In this document: in pieces, positions 53,153-64,000 of the stretch | Layout: the number at the start of each line of letters is the position of its first letter | Numbering within the stretch: the stretch's first letter is position 1 | Source of the DNA: Pseudaquabacterium pictum | GTDB taxonomy: Bacteria; Pseudomonadota; Gammaproteobacteria; Burkholderiales; Burkholderiaceae_C | Length of the DNA: 64,000 nt | Direction of reading: 5' to 3' | NCBI RefSeq assembly: GCF_005403045.1 | Contig: NZ_BJCL01000002.1 | Span: 434,001-498,000, forward strand | Translations under genes and position numbers: made by a program | The notes under the pieces: model-generated | Told to the model about the DNA's origin: nothing | Databases searched by the model: none | What the model saw: the letters and a program-made list of their open reading frames with translations, nothing else

Positions 53153-53265
53153 GGCGGGATCCAGTCGGAGTGGGCCGCCAGACACGGTGCCGGGCGTGGC
53201 CCGGACATTGCAACGGCTGTGCCAAAGTATGCTCTGCCGTTGACCAACCGATTGCAACCGACACC

Positions 53266-54327
53266 ATGACCCAGCCGATCCGCCTGCTCCGTCGCTCCCT
53301 GCTGGCCGCCACCCTGGTGGCAGCGCCTGTCCTCGGGCTGTTGGCCGCCGCCCCGGCGATGGCCCAGGACACCGCCATCAAGTTCCAGCTCGACTGGCGC
53401 TTCGAGGGCCCCAGCGCCTTCTTCCTGCTGCCGGTGGCGCAGGGCCAGTTCAAGGCCGAGAAGCTCAACGTCACCATCGACGCCGGCAACGGCTCGGGCA
53501 ATGCCGTCAACCGGGTGGCCTCGGGCACCTACGACATGGGCTTTGCCGACCTGGCCGCGTTGATGGAATTCCATGCCAACAACCCCACCGCGCCGAACAA
53601 GCCGGTGGCGGTGATGATGGTCTACAACAACACGCCGGCGGCGGTGTTCAGCCTGAAGAAGACCGGCATCACCAGGCCGGCGGACCTGGCCGGCAAGAAG
53701 CTGGGCGCGCCGGTGTTCGACGCCGGCCGCCGCGGCTTCCCGATCTTCCAGAAAGCCAACGGCATCGGCCCGGTCAACTGGGTCAGCATGGACCCGCCGC
53801 TGCGCGAGACCATGCTGGTCAAGGGCGACGTGGACGCGATCACCGGCTTCTACTTCACCAGCCTGCTCAACCTGGAGCAGCGCGGCGTCAAGGCCGAGGA
53901 CATCGCGGTGCAGCTCTATCCGCAGCACGGCGTCAAGCTCTACGGCAACGCCATCATCGTGGGCGAAGAGTTCCTGAAGAAGAACCCCGAGGCGGTGAAG
54001 GCCTTCCTGCGCGCCTTCACCAAGGGCGCCAAGGCGGTGATGGCCGACCCGAAGGCCGCCACCGCCATCGTCAAGGAGCGTGACGGCCTGGTCAACGCCG
54101 AGCTGGAGGAGCGCCGCCTGCGCCTGGCCATCGATTCGGCCATCGCCACGCCCGACGCCCGCGCCGAAGGCTTCGGCGCCGTGGCCGGCCCGCGCCTGGC
54201 GCTGATGGCCAGCCAGGTGGCTGATGCCTATGCCACCAAGAGCCGCATCAACCCCGACGCGATCTGGAACGGCAACTTCCTGCCGGCCAAGGCCGAGCTG
54301 AACATCCTGCCCGCACCGAAGAAGTAA
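53266..54327 (+). CDS. ABC transporter substrate-binding protein, NMT1/NitT-TauT type
   Basis: A 353-residue periplasmic binding protein with a signal peptide ending AMA near residue 34. It opens IKFQLDWRFEGPSAFFLLPVAQGQFKAEKLNVTIDAGNGSGNAVNRVASGTYDMGFADLAALM, the pattern of NMT1/ThiY-like proteins that bind thiamine precursors, sulfonates, nitrate or similar small ligands. LDWRFEGPSAFFL resembles the pyrimidine-precursor and aromatic-acid subgroups more than SsuA, but the ligand cannot be fixed. It heads an operon with ATPase and permease. Divergent promoter DNA (53153-53265) has two copies of ATTGCAAC. Confidence 0.9.
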   Translation: MTQPIRLLRRSLLAATLVAAPVLGLLAAAPAMAQDTAIKFQLDWRFEGPSAFFLLPVAQGQFKAEKLNVTIDAGNGSGNAVNRVASGTYDMGFADLAALMEFHANNPTAPNKPVAVMMVYNNTPAAVFSLKKTGITRPADLAGKKLGAPVFDAGRRGFPIFQKANGIGPVNWVSMDPPLRETMLVKGDVDAITGFYFTSLLNLEQRGVKAEDIAVQLYPQHGVKLYGNAIIVGEEFLKKNPEAVKAFLRAFTKGAKAVMADPKAATAIVKERDGLVNAELEERRLRLAIDSAIATPDARAEGFGAVAGPRLALMASQVADAYATKSRINPDAIWNGNFLPAKAELNILPAPKK

Positions 54328-54335
54328 AGGTCCTC

Positions 54336-55157
54336 ATGACGGCGTTTGTCGATTTCGACCAGGTCTGGCTGGCCTACAACGACGAGCTGCTGGCCAAGGG
54401 CCAGTTCGCCGTCGAAGACATCAACCTGAAGGTGAATGAAGGCGAGTTCATCGCCATCGTCGGCCCCAGCGGCTGCGGCAAGAGCACCTTCATGAAGCTG
54501 GCCACCGGCCTGAAGATGCCGAGCAAGGGCACGGTCGTCATCGGCGGCCAGCAGGTGAAGGGCCCGCTGAAGATCACCGGCATGGCCTTCCAGGCGCCGA
54601 GCCTGCTGCCCTGGCGCACCACGGTGCAGAACGTGATGCTGCCCCTCGAGATCGTCGAGCCCTACCGGTCCAGCTTCAAGCAGAAGAAGGCCGAGTACGA
54701 GGACAAGGCGCGCAAGCTGCTGCAGAGCGTGGGGCTGGGCGGCTACGAGGACAAGTTCCCGTGGCAGCTGTCGGGCGGCATGCAGCAGCGCGCCAGCATC
54801 TGCCGCGCGCTGGTGCACGAGCCGAAGATGCTGCTGCTGGACGAGCCCTTCGGCGCGCTGGACGCCTTCACCCGCGAGGAGCTGTGGTGCGCGCTGCGCG
54901 ACCTGCAGGCAGCGCAGAAGTTCAACGTCATCCTGGTCACGCACGATCTGCGCGAGAGCGTGTTCCTGGCCGACACGGTGTACGTGATGAGCAAGAGCCC
55001 GGGCCGCTTCGTGGTGCGGCGCGAGATCGACCTGCCGCGCCCGCGCGACCTGGAAGTGACCTACACGCCGCAGTTCACCGACATCGTGCATGAGCTGCGC
55101 AGCCACATCGGTGCCGTGCGGAACAGCTTCGGCAAGGCTGCCGCGGAGGTGAAGTGA
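54336..55157 (+). CDS. ABC transporter ATPase, NitT/TauT type
   Basis: A 273-residue ATPase of the TauB/SsuB/NrtD group. Walker A is GPSGCGKST (about 43-51). The Q-loop is in FQAPSLLPWRT, the signature is LSGGMQQRASICRAL, Walker B is LLLDEPFGALD, and the switch histidine is in VTHDLRESVFLAD. It has the extra YRSSFKQKKAEYEDKAR insertion of this subgroup. It starts eight bases after the binding-protein stop and overlaps the permease ATG by one base. Confidence 0.94.
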   Translation: MTAFVDFDQVWLAYNDELLAKGQFAVEDINLKVNEGEFIAIVGPSGCGKSTFMKLATGLKMPSKGTVVIGGQQVKGPLKITGMAFQAPSLLPWRTTVQNVMLPLEIVEPYRSSFKQKKAEYEDKARKLLQSVGLGGYEDKFPWQLSGGMQQRASICRALVHEPKMLLLDEPFGALDAFTREELWCALRDLQAAQKFNVILVTHDLRESVFLADTVYVMSKSPGRFVVRREIDLPRPRDLEVTYTPQFTDIVHELRSHIGAVRNSFGKAAAEVK

Positions 55158-55927
55158 TGGCCTCGCGCAAGCTCGAAAGCTGGTCGCCCTGGATCCTGCT
55201 GGTGGCCACGCTGCTGCTGTGGCAGGCCGTGTGCAGCGCCTTCAACGTCAGCGAGTTCATCTTCCCCAGCCCGGTGCGCATCTGGGACCAGCTGATGGAG
55301 TTCCGCGGCGAGATCGCCAAGCATGCCTGGCGCACCTTCTGGGTGACGATGGTGGGTTTCGGCATCGCCATCGTGGTGGGCGTGCTGCTGGGCTTCCTGA
55401 TCGGCAGCAGCCGCATCGCCTATGCCGCCATCTACCCGCTGATGACCGGCTTCAACGCCCTGCCCAAGGCGGCCTTCGTGCCGATCCTGGTGGTGTGGTT
55501 CGGCATCGGCGTGGGGCCGGCGGTGCTGACCGCCTTCCTGATCAGCTTCTTCCCGATCACGGTGAACATCGCCACCGGCCTGGCCACGCTGGAGCCCGAA
55601 CTGGAAGATGTGCTGCGGGTGCTGGGCGCCAAGCGCTGGGACGTGCTGGTCAAGGTCGGCCTGCCACGGTCGATGCCCTACTTCTTCGGCTCGCTCAAGG
55701 TGGCCATCACCCTGGCCTTCGTCGGCACCACCGTCAGCGAGATGACGGCCAGCAACGAGGGCATCGGCTACCTGCTGGTCAGTGCCGGCAGCAGCATGCA
55801 GATGGGCCTGGCCTTCGCCGGCCTCGTCGTCGTTGGTGCCATGGCGATGGCGATGTACGAGTTCTTCTCGGTGCTGGAAAAGCGCATCACCGGCTGGGCC
55901 CACCGCGGCTCGCAGGGCGGGCACTGA
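55157..55927 (+). CDS. ABC transporter permease, NitT/TauT type
   Basis: A 256-residue inner-membrane permease of the BPD_transp_1 family with six predicted helices. The coupling segment is EPELEDVLRVLGAKRWDVLVKVGLPRSMPYFFGSLKVA, the EAA-loop for contact with the ATPase. ALPKAAFVPILVVWFGIGVGPAV is typical of the TauC/SsuC branch. The ATG at 55157 overlaps the ATPase TGA by one base; a GTG at 55154 is the only other close start. It ends the three-gene importer. Confidence 0.93.
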   Translation: MASRKLESWSPWILLVATLLLWQAVCSAFNVSEFIFPSPVRIWDQLMEFRGEIAKHAWRTFWVTMVGFGIAIVVGVLLGFLIGSSRIAYAAIYPLMTGFNALPKAAFVPILVVWFGIGVGPAVLTAFLISFFPITVNIATGLATLEPELEDVLRVLGAKRWDVLVKVGLPRSMPYFFGSLKVAITLAFVGTTVSEMTASNEGIGYLLVSAGSSMQMGLAFAGLVVVGAMAMAMYEFFSVLEKRITGWAHRGSQGGH

Positions 55928-57919: not shown

Positions 57920-59461
57920 TCAGACGTGGAAGGCGGCCACCAGCCCGGTCAGGCGACGTGTCTGTTCGCGCATCGACTCGGCCGCCGCGGCGGCCTGCTC
58001 CACCAGCGCCGCGTTCTGCTGCGTGCTGCGGTCGATGTCGCTGATCGCCTGGTTCACCGACTGCATGCCGCCGGTCTGCGCCCGGCTGGCGGCGCTGATC
58101 TCGTTGATCAGCTCGGCCACCTGGCGCACCGACAGGCGCACCTCGTCCATCGTGCTGCCGGCCTGGTGGACCAGGGTGGAGCCCGATTCGGTCTGCTCGG
58201 CCGCGGCGCGGATCAGGCCCTCGATCTCGCGCGCCGCCTGCGTGGTGCGCTGCGACAGCGTGCGCACCTCGCTGGCCACCACCGCGAAGCCGCGGCCCTG
58301 CTCGCCGGCGCGGGCAGCTTCCACCGCCGCGTTCAGCGCCAGGATGTTGGTCTGGAAGGCGATGCTGTTGATCACCGAGGTGATCTCGCCGATCTTGCGG
58401 CTGTGCGCATTGATCGCACCCATGGTGTCGATCACCTGGGCCACCACCGCATGGCCGCTGTCGGCCTGGCCGGCGGCCGTCTGCGACAGCGCCAGCGCCT
58501 GGGCCGCCCGCTCGGCGCTGTGCTGCACCGTGCCGGTGAGCTGCTCCATGCTGGAGGTGGTTTGCTGCAGCGCGCCGGCCTGGGTCTCGGTGCGGCTGGA
58601 CAGGTCGGCATTGCCCTGGGCGATCTCGTCGGACGCGCCGTCGATCGCCTCGGCGCCCTGGCGCACCTGGGCCACCATGCCGGCCAGGCTGCTGCGCATG
58701 TCGCGCAGCGCGGCCTGCAGCTGCGCCGCCTCGTCGCGGCCGGAGACCGGGATGTCGGTGGCCAGGTCGCCCTGGGCCACGCGGGCGGCCGAGGCCACCG
58801 CGCTGCGCAGCGGCACGGTGATGCTCAGCGTCAGCCGCCAGGCCAGCACCGCTGCCAGCCCCAGCACCACCAGGGCCGTGCCGACGATGCCGGTCACGGT
58901 CTGCTGGTGGCGGCTGTTGGCGGCGTCGATGCCGGCCTCGGACGCCGTCTGCTGCAGCTTGGCGAAGGCATCCAGCGTGGCCAGCGACTGGCCCAGCAGC
59001 GGGTCGATGCGGGTCAGGATGACCTTGGCCGCCTGCTCGCTGTTGAACTGCGACGACAGTTCCACCGCCTCGACGAAGCTGGCCTCGGTGGCCTTGTCCA
59101 GCTCGGCCAGCTTGGCGAACAGGGCCTTCTCGTCGGCGTTCAGGCCGGCGTCGGACAGCTTGGTGCGCTCGGCCAGGTACTGCTGGCGCTGGCGCTTGGC
59201 CTCGGCCTCGTCCTTCTGCACGCCTTCCACCGTGCTCTGCAGGCCCATGCTGCGAACCGCCAGCGCGCTGAGCAGCAGCGACTGGCGCATCTGCGTCACC
59301 TGGGCATGGCGGGTCGAGGTGGTCTGCATGGTGGACTGCAGGCTGTCGCGGCTGGCGGCACTGCCCAGCAGGGCCACCGCCAGCATGGCGCCGGCCGCCA
59401 GCAGGATGCAGGCAAAGCCGGCACCCAGCCGGGTGCCGATGCGAAGCTCACGCAAGTTCAA
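57920..59461 (-). CDS. Methyl-accepting chemotaxis protein
   Basis: A 513-residue chemoreceptor. TM1 is at about 12-34, a four-helix-type periplasmic sensor at 35-188 ([30 protein letters not shown]), TM2 at 189-210, HAMP at about 211-265, then the signalling helices with the hairpin tip [31 protein letters not shown]. There is no C-terminal CheR-binding pentapeptide; it ends VAAFHV. The start is TTG at 59461, with a GGAGAA site before it and the usual [15 protein letters not shown] opening. It lies 52 bases downstream of the Cache-domain gene; a hairpin (59486-59519) sits across the junction and may tune the ratio of the two. Confidence 0.92.
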
Positions 59462-59513: not shown

Positions 59514-59984
59514 TCAGCCCTTGTAGATGCCGCAGCCGACCAGCGTGTCGCCATGGCGCTCCAGGTACATGGCCTTGCCTTCGATCTTCTGCGACACCGG
59601 ATTCAGGAACTTGTAGCCCTCGACCCAGCCCTTGCCCTTGTCCTTGGCGGTGTCGACGAACTCCTTGATGATCAGGCGGCCGTTCGGGTCCTTCAGGCCG
59701 ATCAGGTCCTTGCCCACCAGCTTGGGGTTGGCGCCCTGGGCCAGGTTCTTGCCGTTCAGGTCGTAGACGATGATGTACAGGTCACGGTCCTTGAAGCTCT
59801 TGCCGTTGGTGAACTCCTCGTACGCCTTCTCCGGGCCGTTGGCCTTGATGTAGGCCACGGCCTTCTTGACCATGGCCTCGGCCTCGGCCGCGGTGCCCTG
59901 GTCGGCCGCCAGCGCAGGGCCGGCCATCAGGAAACCGGCGACGGTGGCAGCCAGCAGGCGCTTGAGTTGGGTGAGGAAGTTCAT
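59514..59984 (-). CDS. Secreted single Cache-domain protein
   Basis: A 156-residue exported protein: signal peptide ending ALA near residue 26, then a single Cache_2-type sensor domain (EAMVKKAVAYIKANGPEKAYEEFTNG, FKDRDLYIIVYDLNGKNLAQGANPKLVGKDLIGLKDPNGR, WVEGYKFLNPVSQKIEGKAMYLERHGDTLVGCGIYKG). No membrane anchor or output domain remains, so it is a free periplasmic ligand-binding module. Such proteins often sit near chemoreceptors or two-component genes. Its place just upstream of the MCP suggests it delivers a ligand to that receptor (inference). Confidence 0.88.
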   Translation of the reverse strand: MNFLTQLKRLLAATVAGFLMAGPALAADQGTAAEAEAMVKKAVAYIKANGPEKAYEEFTNGKSFKDRDLYIIVYDLNGKNLAQGANPKLVGKDLIGLKDPNGRLIIKEFVDTAKDKGKGWVEGYKFLNPVSQKIEGKAMYLERHGDTLVGCGIYKG

Positions 59985-60176: not shown

Positions 60177-61019
60177 ATGGGCTGGCACGGACACCTGCAC
60201 CTGCACTACACCCGCACCGGCGCGCGCACCAGCGCGCTCGATCGGCACCATGGTCCGCTGCGGGTGCTGCAGCGCCTGTACCCCGAGGGCGAGGCCATCT
60301 GCCACCATGTGCTGGTGCACCCGCCGGGCGGCGTGGTGGGCGGCGATGTGCTGTCGCTGCAGGCCGAGCTGGACGCCGGCAGCCATGCGGTGATCACCAC
60401 GCCCGGCGCCACCCGCTTCTACCGCAGCGACGGCCTGCTGGCCGAGCAGACGGTGCAGGCCAGCCTGGCAGCCGGTGCCCGGCTGGAATGGCTGCCGATG
60501 GAGACCATCGCCTACCGCGGCTGCCAGGTGCACAACAGCCTGCACTTCGACCTGGCGCCCGGAGCCCAGATGCTGGGCTGGGATGTGCTGGCCCTGGGCC
60601 TGCCCGCCGCCGGCGCTGCCTTCGACGCGGGCCGCTACCGCCAGCACATCACCCTGCCCGGCGTGTGGCAGGAGCGCGGCCTGTTCGATGGCAGCGATGG
60701 CCTGCTGCTGCACAGCCCGCTGGGCCTGGCCGGCCACACGGTGAGCGCCAGCCTGTGGCTGGCCGAGGGCATCGGCCCGGGGCAGACGCTGGACCGCGCC
60801 CGCACCGAGGCGCTGGTGGATGCCGCCCGTGCGCTGATCGATGGCAGCGACCTGGCCACCACCGCCGGCGTCAGCGCGCCGCACCCCAGCCTGCTGGTGC
60901 TGCGCGCCCTGGGCCACCGGGTGGAACCGGTGATGGCCCTGCTGCAGGCGGTGCGCGGCGCCTGGCGCCAGCTGCACTGGGGGCTGGCCGCCCACCCGCC
61001 GCGGGTCTGGCGCACCTGA
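60177..61019 (+). CDS. ureD: Urease accessory protein UreD
   Basis: A 280-residue urease maturation scaffold. UreD binds apo-urease first and recruits UreF and UreG. Recognisable blocks are GPLRVLQRLYPEG, CHHVLVHPPGGVVGGDVL, ITTPGATRFYRSDG, LEWLPMETIAYRGCQVHNSLHFDLAPGAQMLGWDVLALGLP. Length is normal. ATG 60177 is chosen; a TTG at 60090 is in frame but adds a low-complexity tail. In most Burkholderiales ureABC follows ureD; here ureE follows after 39 bases. Confidence 0.92.
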   Translation: MGWHGHLHLHYTRTGARTSALDRHHGPLRVLQRLYPEGEAICHHVLVHPPGGVVGGDVLSLQAELDAGSHAVITTPGATRFYRSDGLLAEQTVQASLAAGARLEWLPMETIAYRGCQVHNSLHFDLAPGAQMLGWDVLALGLPAAGAAFDAGRYRQHITLPGVWQERGLFDGSDGLLLHSPLGLAGHTVSASLWLAEGIGPGQTLDRARTEALVDAARALIDGSDLATTAGVSAPHPSLLVLRALGHRVEPVMALLQAVRGAWRQLHWGLAAHPPRVWRT

Positions 61020-61058
61020 GCACTGCGCGCTGGCGCCCGCTGGCCGACAATCCGCCCC

Positions 61059-61709
61059 ATGCTGACCGTCAACAAACTCATCCCCCAGGGCCGCGGCCTG
61101 GCCGCCGTGCTGGTGCGCCGCGCCGCCACCGTGCAACTCGACTGGGACGTGCGCCAGAAGAGCCGCTTCGACGCCACCGACAGCCAGGGCCGCACGCTGG
61201 GCGTGTTCCTGCCGCGCGGCACCCTGGTGCGTGGCGGCGATGTGCTGGTGGCCGAGGACGGCTCGCTGGTGCAGGTGCAGGCCGCCCCGCAGCCGGTGCT
61301 GGAAGTGCGCCACTGCACGCAGCACGGCAGCCCCTTCGACCTGCTGCGCGCCGCCTACCACCTGGGCAACCGCCATGTGGCGCTGGAGCTGAAGCCCGAC
61401 CACCTGAAGCTGGAGCCCGACCATGTGCTGGCCGACATGCTGCGCCAGCAGCACCTGATCGTCTCCGAGGCCCTGGCCGCCTTCGAGCCCGAGGGTGGCG
61501 CCTACGGCAGCGGCGGACATGGTCACGGGCACGGCCATGACCACGGGCACGACCATGCCCATGACCACGGCCATGCCCACCCACCGGCCGCCGCCCCCGT
61601 CCGCAAGCCGCTGGCGGTGCCGGTGGTGGCCGCCGCGCCGGCGCCGCATGTGCACGGCCCGGGCTGCGGCCACGACCATGGGCATGACCACGGCCACCAC
61701 GGCCACTGA
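61059..61709 (+). CDS. ureE: Urease nickel metallochaperone UreE with long His-rich tail
   Basis: A 216-residue nickel chaperone that delivers Ni2+ to the UreDFG complex. The N-terminal domain is typical (LTVNKLIPQGRG, LDWDVRQKSRFDATDSQGRTLGVFLPRGTLVRGGDVLVAEDG). The metal-binding domain follows (GNRHVALEL, the conserved His-x site). From about residue 149 a long tail carries two His/Asp/Gly blocks, HGHGHGHDHGHDHAHDHGHAH and GHDHGHDHGHHGH, separated by a Pro/Ala stretch; these probably store several metal ions. A GACAAT ends seven bases before the ATG and no ribosome site is seen. Confidence 0.93.
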   Translation: MLTVNKLIPQGRGLAAVLVRRAATVQLDWDVRQKSRFDATDSQGRTLGVFLPRGTLVRGGDVLVAEDGSLVQVQAAPQPVLEVRHCTQHGSPFDLLRAAYHLGNRHVALELKPDHLKLEPDHVLADMLRQQHLIVSEALAAFEPEGGAYGSGGHGHGHGHDHGHDHAHDHGHAHPPAAAPVRKPLAVPVVAAAPAPHVHGPGCGHDHGHDHGHHGH

Positions 61710-61727
61710 CCCCACAAGCTGCCCGGC

Positions 61728-62447
61728 ATGCCCCGCGTCCGCCCCGCCACGCCGCCGCTGCCTGCCACCGCCCTGCTGCAGCTGATGTGGCTGGCCTCGC
61801 CGGCCCTGCCGGTGGGCGGCTTCAGCTATTCCGAGGCGCTGGAGGCCGCGGTCGACCAGGGCCTGGTCACCGACGAGGCCAGCGCCGGCCGCTGGCTGCT
61901 GGACCAGCTGCACCTGGGCCTGCAACGTGCCGACCTGCCGCTGCTGGCCAGCGCCATGCATGCCTGGCAGCGGCGGGATGCCGAGCGGCTGACGGCGCTG
62001 AACGACTGGGCGCTGCAGACCCGCGAGACTTTCGAGATGCGCCAGCAGACCGAGCAGATGGGCCGTTCGCTGGCGGACTGGCTGCGCCAGCGCCACCCGT
62101 CCGACGACCGCCTGCCGCTGCTGGCCGCGCTGCAACCCTCGCCCACCTGGCCGATCGCCTTTGCGCTGGCCGCCACGGCCACCGGCGCGCCGCGTCGCGA
62201 ATCCCTGCTGGCCTTCGGCTTCGGCTGGGCCGAGAACCAGGTCGGCGCGGCGGTCAAGTCCGTCCCGCTGGGCCAGAGCGCCGGCCAGCGTCTGCTGGGC
62301 GCCCTGGCCCAGGCCTTGCCTGCGGCGGTGGATGCGGCGCTGGCCACCGCCACGGCGGGTGATGCCGCCCGCCAGAACCTGGCGCCGATGCTGGCCATCC
62401 TGTCGGCCCGGCATGAAGCCCAATACTCCCGGCTGTTCCGCAGCTGA
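61728..62447 (+). CDS. ureF: Urease accessory protein UreF
   Basis: A 239-residue all-helical protein that joins UreD and activates the UreG GTPase cycle. The opening [35 protein letters not shown] is the UreF hallmark. [22 protein letters not shown] and [26 protein letters not shown] follow in the usual order. It is spaced 18 bases after ureE and 24 before ureG. Confidence 0.93.
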
Positions 62448-62471
62448 TTCCCTGTCCATCGACTGACCACC

Positions 62472-63131
62472 ATGCCCCAACTGCACAGCATCCCCGGCCG
62501 CACCAAGCAACTTCCGCCGCTGCGCGTGGGCGTCGGCGGGCCGGTGGGCTCGGGCAAGACCACCCTGGTGGAGATGCTCTGCAAGACCATGCGCGCGCGC
62601 TGGGACCTGGTGGTGGTCACCAACGACATCTACACCAAGGAAGACCAGCGCCTGCTCACCGTGGCCGGCGCGCTGGACCCGGAACGCATCATGGGCGTGG
62701 AGACCGGCGGCTGCCCGCACACCGCCATCCGGGAAGACGCGTCGATCAACCTCGAGGCGGTCGACCGCATGCTGGGCAAGTTCCCCGATGCCGACATCGT
62801 GTTCATCGAGAGCGGTGGCGACAACCTGGCCGCCACCTTCAGCCCCGAGCTGAGCGACCTGACGATCTATGTGATCGACGTCGCCGCCGGCGAGAAGATC
62901 CCGCGCAAGGGCGGCCCCGGCATCACCAAGAGCGACCTGTTCGTGATCAACAAGACCGACCTGGCGCCGCATGTGGGGGCCGACCTGGCGGTGATGGAGG
63001 CCGACACCCAGCGCATGCGGCCCGACCACGCCGGCCGCCGCCCCTATGTGATGAGCAACCTGAAGACCCGCGCCGGCCTGGACGCGGTGGTGCGCTTCAT
63101 CGAGGTGCGCGGCCTGCTCACGGCCGGTTGA
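62472..63131 (+). CDS. ureG: Urease accessory GTPase UreG
   Basis: A 219-residue SIMIBI GTPase that couples GTP hydrolysis to nickel insertion. The P-loop is GGPVGSGKT (22-30), [10 protein letters not shown] follows, the metal-binding CPH motif is Cys81-Pro82-His83 ([14 protein letters not shown]), and [17 protein letters not shown] and [14 protein letters not shown] (the NKxD base motif) are intact. Its last 14 bases overlap the convergent kinase-globin gene. Confidence 0.95.
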
Positions 63132-64000
63132 CCGGGCCGCCCGGTGCGCGGGCGCCCAGGTCCAGGTACAGGTCGACCCCTTCGCGGGCCCGCAGGCTGG
63201 CGGTCATCTCGGCATCGCGCAGCAGTTCGGCGCGGGTGAGGTAGTCGATGCCCGGCGCCAGCACCCGCTGCCAGTGGCCGCGCAGGCGGCGCGCGGTGTC
63301 GCGGTGCTGGCACACCGGGTCGCAGGCGGCGATGGACTGGGCGGGATCGGCATCGGCATGGCCGCAGACCATGTCGACCAGCAGCTCGCCGAAGGGCGCG
63401 TACAGCCCGGCCGGCATGCCGGCATGGCTGGCGGCCACATGGCTCAGCAGCGTGGGCTCGTCGCGGTCGGCCTGGCGCTGGCTGAAGGCGATCAGCAACG
63501 ACACCGCCTGCTTGAGCATGCGGTGCTGGCGCTGCCAGCGGTCGGGCCCCTGGATGCGGGCCAGCAGCTTGGCCGCCGCGCGCTTGCGCTGCACCAGGCG
63601 GGCGTAGAACTCGCTGAAGAAGCGGCTGTCGAAATCGGCCGCGCGGGTGCAGCGGCGCCAGCTGTCGCGCACCAGCACCAGCGACAGGTCGTCATGCAGG
63701 TCGGGCTCGGCCAGCACCGCCGCCATGGCCGAGCCACGCCGCGCCGGGTCGGGCTGCAGGCGTGCCGCCGGGTCGGCCTGCGCCATGGTCTGCAGCAGCG
63801 TGTCGAAGCGTTCGGGGAACAGCCGGCGCCGGCTGCGCACCGGTGGCAGCGGCGCAAACGCGTCGAGGCCGTCCTCGGCCAGGCGCCGGGGGTTGGTCAG
63901 CCGCTGCGGCAGCGCACCGGTGGCCATTTCCCAGGCCAGCAGACCCAGCATGTACTGATCGGCCAGTTCACCATCGTCGGCCTGCTCCAGCCCCACGGCC
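63118..64000 (-). CDS. Protein kinase-like protein with C-terminal globin-like domain, cut by right edge
   Basis: The visible 293 residues start mid-protein. The first part is the C-lobe of a Ser/Thr protein kinase: [21 protein letters not shown] fits subdomain IX (D-x-Y-x-L-G ... W-E-M-x-T-G), and [19 protein letters not shown] fits subdomain XI with its arginine. From about 115 residues before the end of that lobe onwards the chain looks like a globin: LVRDSWRRC (A helix), [20 protein letters not shown] (B), [16 protein letters not shown] (E), [25 protein letters not shown] (F helix, candidate proximal His) and [14 protein letters not shown] (H). So this may be a gas- or redox-sensing kinase. 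The catalytic core lies outside the window, so kinase activity cannot be judged. Confidence 0.68.

Follow-up and report, generated by a model that had tools for sequence, protein, structure and literature searches.

What does it mean when a bacterial genome carries the urease accessory genes ureD, ureE, ureF and ureG side by side, with none of the structural genes ureA, ureB and ureC among them? The question is raised by Pseudaquabacterium pictum (genome G000; 6.14 Mb in 64 contigs), where the window, the 64,000-nucleotide stretch of DNA analysed here (G000:C2:434001-498000), lies deep within a 655-kb contig and holds the four genes as open frames without interruption, all on the plus strand, between positions 60177 and 63131. 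No ureABC was found from 1.2 kb 5′ of ureD to 10.9 kb past ureG (locus L003).

All four accessory genes are intact, as the first-pass annotation of this stretch had stated. ureD (60177-61019, 280 aa, with a start kept in relatives; Pfam UreD, E 6.4e-49) is followed, after exactly the 39 bases given in that annotation (61020-61058), by ureE (61059-61709, 216 aa), encoding a nickel-binding accessory protein with a His-rich tail (Pfam UreE_C, 5.6e-28, and UreE_N, 2.7e-17). Then come ureF (61728-62447, 239 aa; Pfam UreF, 8e-43) and the gene of the accessory GTPase, ureG (62472-63131, 219 aa; Pfam cobW/UreG, 8.3e-41). All four proteins score above the Pfam cut-off; the NCBIfam cut-off is passed by UreE (equivalog PRK13263, 261 bits against a cut-off of 221) and UreG (equivalog TIGR00101, 318 bits against 204), and no NCBIfam model matched UreD or UreF at E 0.001. 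Both the P-loop and the CPH motif (GGCPHTAI), key elements of UreG, are present.

On the left, the block is preceded on the plus strand by the genes of an NMT1/SsuA-type ABC transporter (binding protein, ATPase and permease, by Pfam; 53239-55927), often the upstream neighbour of ureD in relatives, and, between transporter and ureD on the minus strand, by a chemoreceptor gene (57920-59461, named from reading the sequence) and a gene for a Cache protein (59514-59984), an order repeated in G164 and G165. In 19 of the 29 loci L079-L107 (including Rubrivivax, Ideonella, Sphaerotilus and Methylibium), a permease gene of this transporter type stands upstream of ureD at a distance of 10 kb or less; several of the remaining 10 have short flanks. 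On the right, the 3′ part of a TIR/protein-kinase gene (63118-64000, minus strand) is convergent with ureG and overlaps it by 14 bp; next, outside the window, are corA and fbpA (the TIR-kinase and CorA assigned by Pfam, fbpA by reading). In G000 and G165 the TIR-kinase gene (L003:4119-6194) separates ureG from corA; it is absent from the other genus loci read. The divalent metal transporter gene corA (L003:6232-7161), which moved along with ureEFG, is found 3′ of ureG in 11 of the 14 genus genomes for which the surroundings of ureG were read; a role in nickel or cobalt supply is possible.

Where, then, is the enzyme encoded? Across the whole genome there is a single ureC match (urease alpha domain), a 684-aa open frame on contig C6. 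The genes there run ureA, that of a small His-containing peptide with a membrane stretch, ureB and ureC, and gmk-rpoZ-spoT (names given from reading the sequence) come 48 bp after ureC; ureA, ureB and ureC are intact. UreC aligned end to end with the Klebsiella urease 1ejw_C (E 4.4e-268) and retains its nickel-site motifs HIH, KLHEDW, HSDTLNE, FHTEG and SSDSQ, which include the nickel ligands and the carbamylated lysine. The structural genes are therefore elsewhere, one of the options that the first-pass annotation had considered, and their loss is already refuted. As far as its sequence tells, G000 encodes a complete, ordinary urease that probably works. The small peptide between ureA and ureB (about 54-66 aa; L002:10778-10978) has a signal-like start, HEGHGLPGASHWH and one membrane stretch, and is encoded in eight genus genomes; a 52-aa piece of it gave no match in Pfam or NCBIfam.

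Across the two gene sets, every comparison made gave a dN/dS below 1. Against G158 and G163, the values range from 0.05 to 0.24 in all comparisons (0.09-0.24 for ureD to ureG), and against G165 from 0.07 to 0.21 with the exception of ureD at 0.54 (accessory genes 0.15-0.54); for ureC, where the comparison was possible with G163 only, dN/dS is 0.10. Intact frames and such values lend no support to the earlier proposal that, with ureABC lost, the accessory set is a relic or has been repurposed.

Nickel is delivered by UreE and inserted by a complex of UreD, UreF and UreG. With ureA-ureB-ureC on C6 making the apo-enzyme and ureD-E-F-G in the window making the nickel-insertion chaperones, two loci suffice and linkage is not needed, because the chaperones reach the cytoplasmic apo-UreABC as proteins, working in trans. 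The urease encoded by the two loci is predicted to be active. Its urea might have an external source or derive from purines: genes for guanine deaminase and 8-oxoguanine deaminase lie inside the window, and allantoicase, the sole urea-releasing step searched, had no match in G000 and likewise none in any control genome.

The first-pass annotation had assumed that relatives carry ureABC at this spot and had considered a clean excision between ureD and ureE. The classical ureD-ABC-EFG order that such an excision presupposes does occur, both in the gammaproteobacterial loci that we fetched and, according to the passages of PMC6737895 drawn on here, in K. aerogenes and Nitrosospira. It does not fit the family to which G000 belongs. 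In a sample of 150 family genomes, 110 gave strong matches to ureC, ureD and ureE, and among these the distance between ureC and ureD was at most 3 kb in 12, 3-10 kb in 14, 10-50 kb in 33 and larger in 12, the two genes being on different contigs in the other 39. Hence, in 98 of 110 genomes ureD and ureC are over 3 kb apart or on different contigs; the 39 different-contig cases include many draft genomes and may hide some neighbours, whereas the 59 same-contig cases beyond 3 kb are independent of draft state. By comparison, ureC and ureE are within 3 kb of each other in 68 of the 110 genomes, and ureD and ureE in five. The combination of ureD adjoining ureE with ureC on a different contig was found once in the 110, in G000.

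The genus gives a sharper picture. Counting 21 genomes and excluding a second, divergent urease of G163, we found ureC, ureE and ureG on one contig and ureD on another in nine, and ureD, ureE and ureG on one contig in four (G000, G158, G163 and G165); the remaining eight have at least one match missing or matches on further contigs. In none of the 21 do ureC and a ureD ortholog share a contig, so that, with ureD already apart in nine of nine genomes with a ureC-E-G contig, ureABC intact elsewhere and the accessory genes at dN/dS 0.09-0.54, an excision from a classical cluster that left a relic or repurposed set is extremely improbable. The first-pass annotation had also named, as an observation that would count against its reading, a split shared by all relatives with ureABC elsewhere. 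This was borne out in part: three relatives share the exact layout, and a ureD distant from ureC is the rule in the family (98 of 110, with 39 of these being different contigs of often draft genomes), but the layout is not that of all relatives.

Two neighbourhoods make up the common layout in the genus. One runs ureA-B-C-E-F-G and on to corA (e.g. L042, L055, L056 and L069), and in L042 and L069 fbpA comes after corA; the other holds ureD apart, often behind the ABC transporter (L041, L043 and L068). Of the nine genomes with ureC, ureE and ureG together, seven have 37-793 bases between ureC and ureE, and the other two, G143 and G011, have about 4.9-5.0 kb (to about 4990 bases). In the near outgroup G164, ureC and ureE each run off the end of a contig, on two different contigs, consistent with contact between the two genes. 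The ure region is labile, and other splits exist: in G155, 4.6 kb past ureC are without ureE before the contig ends, and in G152 ureC, ureE and ureD are on three contigs. Two further observations concern single genomes. The second urease of G163 (L047, contig C262) has a UreC 49% and a UreG 50% identical, along with a weak UreD-like match. G161 (L070), rated 98% complete, carries ureD and a ureE frame of 177 aa before the first stop on one contig, with no ureC or ureG match in the genome; this is possibly a real relic or a partial urease set.

The junctions show what is particular to the four joined genomes. The ureD-ureE junction is new in this clade when compared with outgroups, with gaps of 35, 50 and 53 bases in the three besides G000. 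On the 3′ side of ureG, corA and fbpA follow in G163, and the same pair follows the extra TIR-kinase gene in G165 and G000, the contig of G158 ending past ureG. A junction of ureC with gmk is found in G000, G163 and G158 (in the last, the gmk contig begins inside ureC), is unreadable in G165, where both contigs end there, and is absent from six of six other genus gmk loci read. These observations also bear on the suggestion, made in the first-pass annotation, that about 2.5 kb were dropped in assembly between positions 61019 and 61059. G000 is a draft genome of 64 contigs, which is what can be said for such an error; with the junction recurring in three further assemblies with different intergenic bases, and with single-copy ureABC found elsewhere, its probability is close to nil.

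Trees place the four genomes together. In the ureD tree they form one group (support 97/98; 4 of 11 rows), and in the spoT tree the three joined genomes that have spoT loci group together (100/99; 3 of 9 rows); of the 18 genus genomes that have ureD, 11 were used in these trees, and of the 20 having a gmk match, nine. In the ureG tree the clade has a support of 54/73, UreG being too conserved to show it well. The identity of ureG is 94-97% inside the joined clade and 87-93% to other genus members, a pattern at odds with the idea that ureEFG was gained by horizontal transfer and landed beside ureD by chance. The novel position of the genes is what would suggest such a gain, and since corA and fbpA, their downstream neighbours in the common layout, moved together with them, we regard this origin as improbable.

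We consider it very likely that P. pictum has a complete nickel urease encoded at two loci, and that this layout arose once, by rearrangement, in the ancestor of the four related genomes. A chromosomal rearrangement would have split ureABC-EFG between ureC and ureE, ureEFG with the downstream corA-fbpA would have been placed behind the already solitary ureD, and ureC would have come to sit directly before gmk-rpoZ-spoT. It is ureEFG that would have come to ureD, because in nine of nine genus genomes where ureC, ureE and ureG share a contig, ureD was already on a different one. The simplest account is a single event in one ancestor, and we infer that the three breakpoints (ureC-ureE, ureD and its old neighbour, and that old neighbour and gmk) were part of it. 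The left flank of ureD looks older than the joining, because G164 has the transporter-chemoreceptor-Cache-ureD order of the window with no ureE in the remaining 0.7 kb of the contig, its ureE and ureG lying on another contig. A new location in G000 for the former right-hand neighbours of ureD was not found. We also considered yicC, the usual neighbour of gmk, as the broken partner. This does not seem to be its role: in G000 yicC is on contig C12, and in G151 and G164, the nearest outgroups, the gene before gmk is divergent and resembles an FAD monooxygenase (named by reading).

How would ureEFG have survived a change of neighbours? The hexamer GACAAT lies 7 nt upstream of the ureE ATG in the junction of G000, and at 6-8 bases upstream in 10 of the 14 genus members read, in both layouts and in surrounding DNA that is otherwise dissimilar. 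Within the window alone it is not significant (one found against 0.26 expected, with 20 of 100 shuffles reaching one), and its background is 3 of 304 roughly called genes, ureE itself possibly included; its weight comes from conservation at ureE starts and not from window statistics. GACAAT may serve as a promoter element from which a leaderless transcript starts, and ureE appears to keep its own promoter, which would explain the survival of ureEFG beside new genes.

That the enzyme has fallen silent in the joined lineage, the split of control blocking co-expression, could be argued from ureA, which retains its divergent sensor-kinase neighbourhood while the maturation genes are gone from there. 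The dN/dS values below 1 in the clade argue against it, as do the cyanobacteria with split genes, which are reported in the available passages of PMC6737895 to need these genes for urease activity, and we give silence little credence. Somewhat less doubtful, though still unlikely, is an uncoupling of urease maturation from synthesis, in which ureABC, beside a conserved hybrid histidine kinase with an NCS1-fold sensor half that may respond to urea or to a product of purine breakdown, and the chaperones, near purine-deaminating genes and with their own promoter, would answer to different signals.

The kinase in question (L002:12747-17508, C6) is a hybrid histidine kinase with its membrane half at the N-terminus, encoded with a LuxR-type regulator divergently from ureA, with a GGDEF gene between kinase and ureA in G000. 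Strong relatives (E at most 1e-100) occur in 83 of the 150 family genomes, 81 of which have ureC; a relative lies within 6 kb of ureC in 63 genomes, on the opposite strand in 62. Of the 112 family genomes that have ureC, 62 are thus of the latter kind and 31 lack a strong relative, and a more distant paralog (below 58% identical) is near ureC in just one of 35 rows. Relatives also stand beside urt/ure clusters in 11 gammaproteobacterial loci. The membrane half matched no Pfam domain even at E 10 and, by sequence, no solved structure convincingly (best E 0.52). In a fold model of this half from the gammaproteobacterial locus L125 (11 sequences; mean pLDDT 73.6, pTM 0.77), it resembles NCS1 transporters, Mhp1 and CodB being the best matches (E 1.2e-8 to 9.2e-7, TM 0.59-0.62) and other transporters of related fold, including the plant urea transporter DUR3 (E 8.5e-5), ranking lower. 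That it senses urea or purines for urease is our guess. In plan the kinase is similar to the SLC5-STAC kinases CbrA and CrbS (PMC13022988, PMC5715377), and a literature search at the level of titles and abstract openings found no NCS1-type kinase tied to urease. The association of this kinase with ureABC may prove of more interest than the split layout itself.

A partial urease set can form when a lone ureD is joined by a moved ureEFG and the enzyme is kept, and a seemingly odd case of accessory genes without an enzyme is thereby removed. In a family where the split is common, the whole genome should be searched before a partial urease set is called a relic.

Against this background, the arrangement in P. 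pictum is unusual, and it is also a modest variation on the scattering already known for urease genes. A search of titles and abstract openings found no ureDEFG block without ureABC in Burkholderiales. Relatives in the genus (e.g. G167, L042/L043) have the same genes and the same ureEFG-corA-fbpA and transporter-ureD neighbourhoods as G000; unlike in G000, their ureEFG is still beside ureABC and their ureD is alone. The ureDABCEFG cluster of Klebsiella and Nitrosospira, as given in the passages of PMC6737895, comprises the same seven genes, and the local order in G000 matches it minus ABC; there, ureABC stands between ureD and ureE, whereas G000 has 39 bp at that place and ureABC on another contig, and so does not have the classical operon. 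In the cyanobacteria covered by the same passages, urease genes are scattered, Anabaena having ureDAB/ureC and ureEFG and Synechocystis being fully scattered. No ureDEFG block is among the cyanobacterial cases in those passages, whereas G000 has ureDEFG as one block and ureABC as another; like G000, these cyanobacteria have a complete urease whose structural and accessory genes are spread over separate loci.
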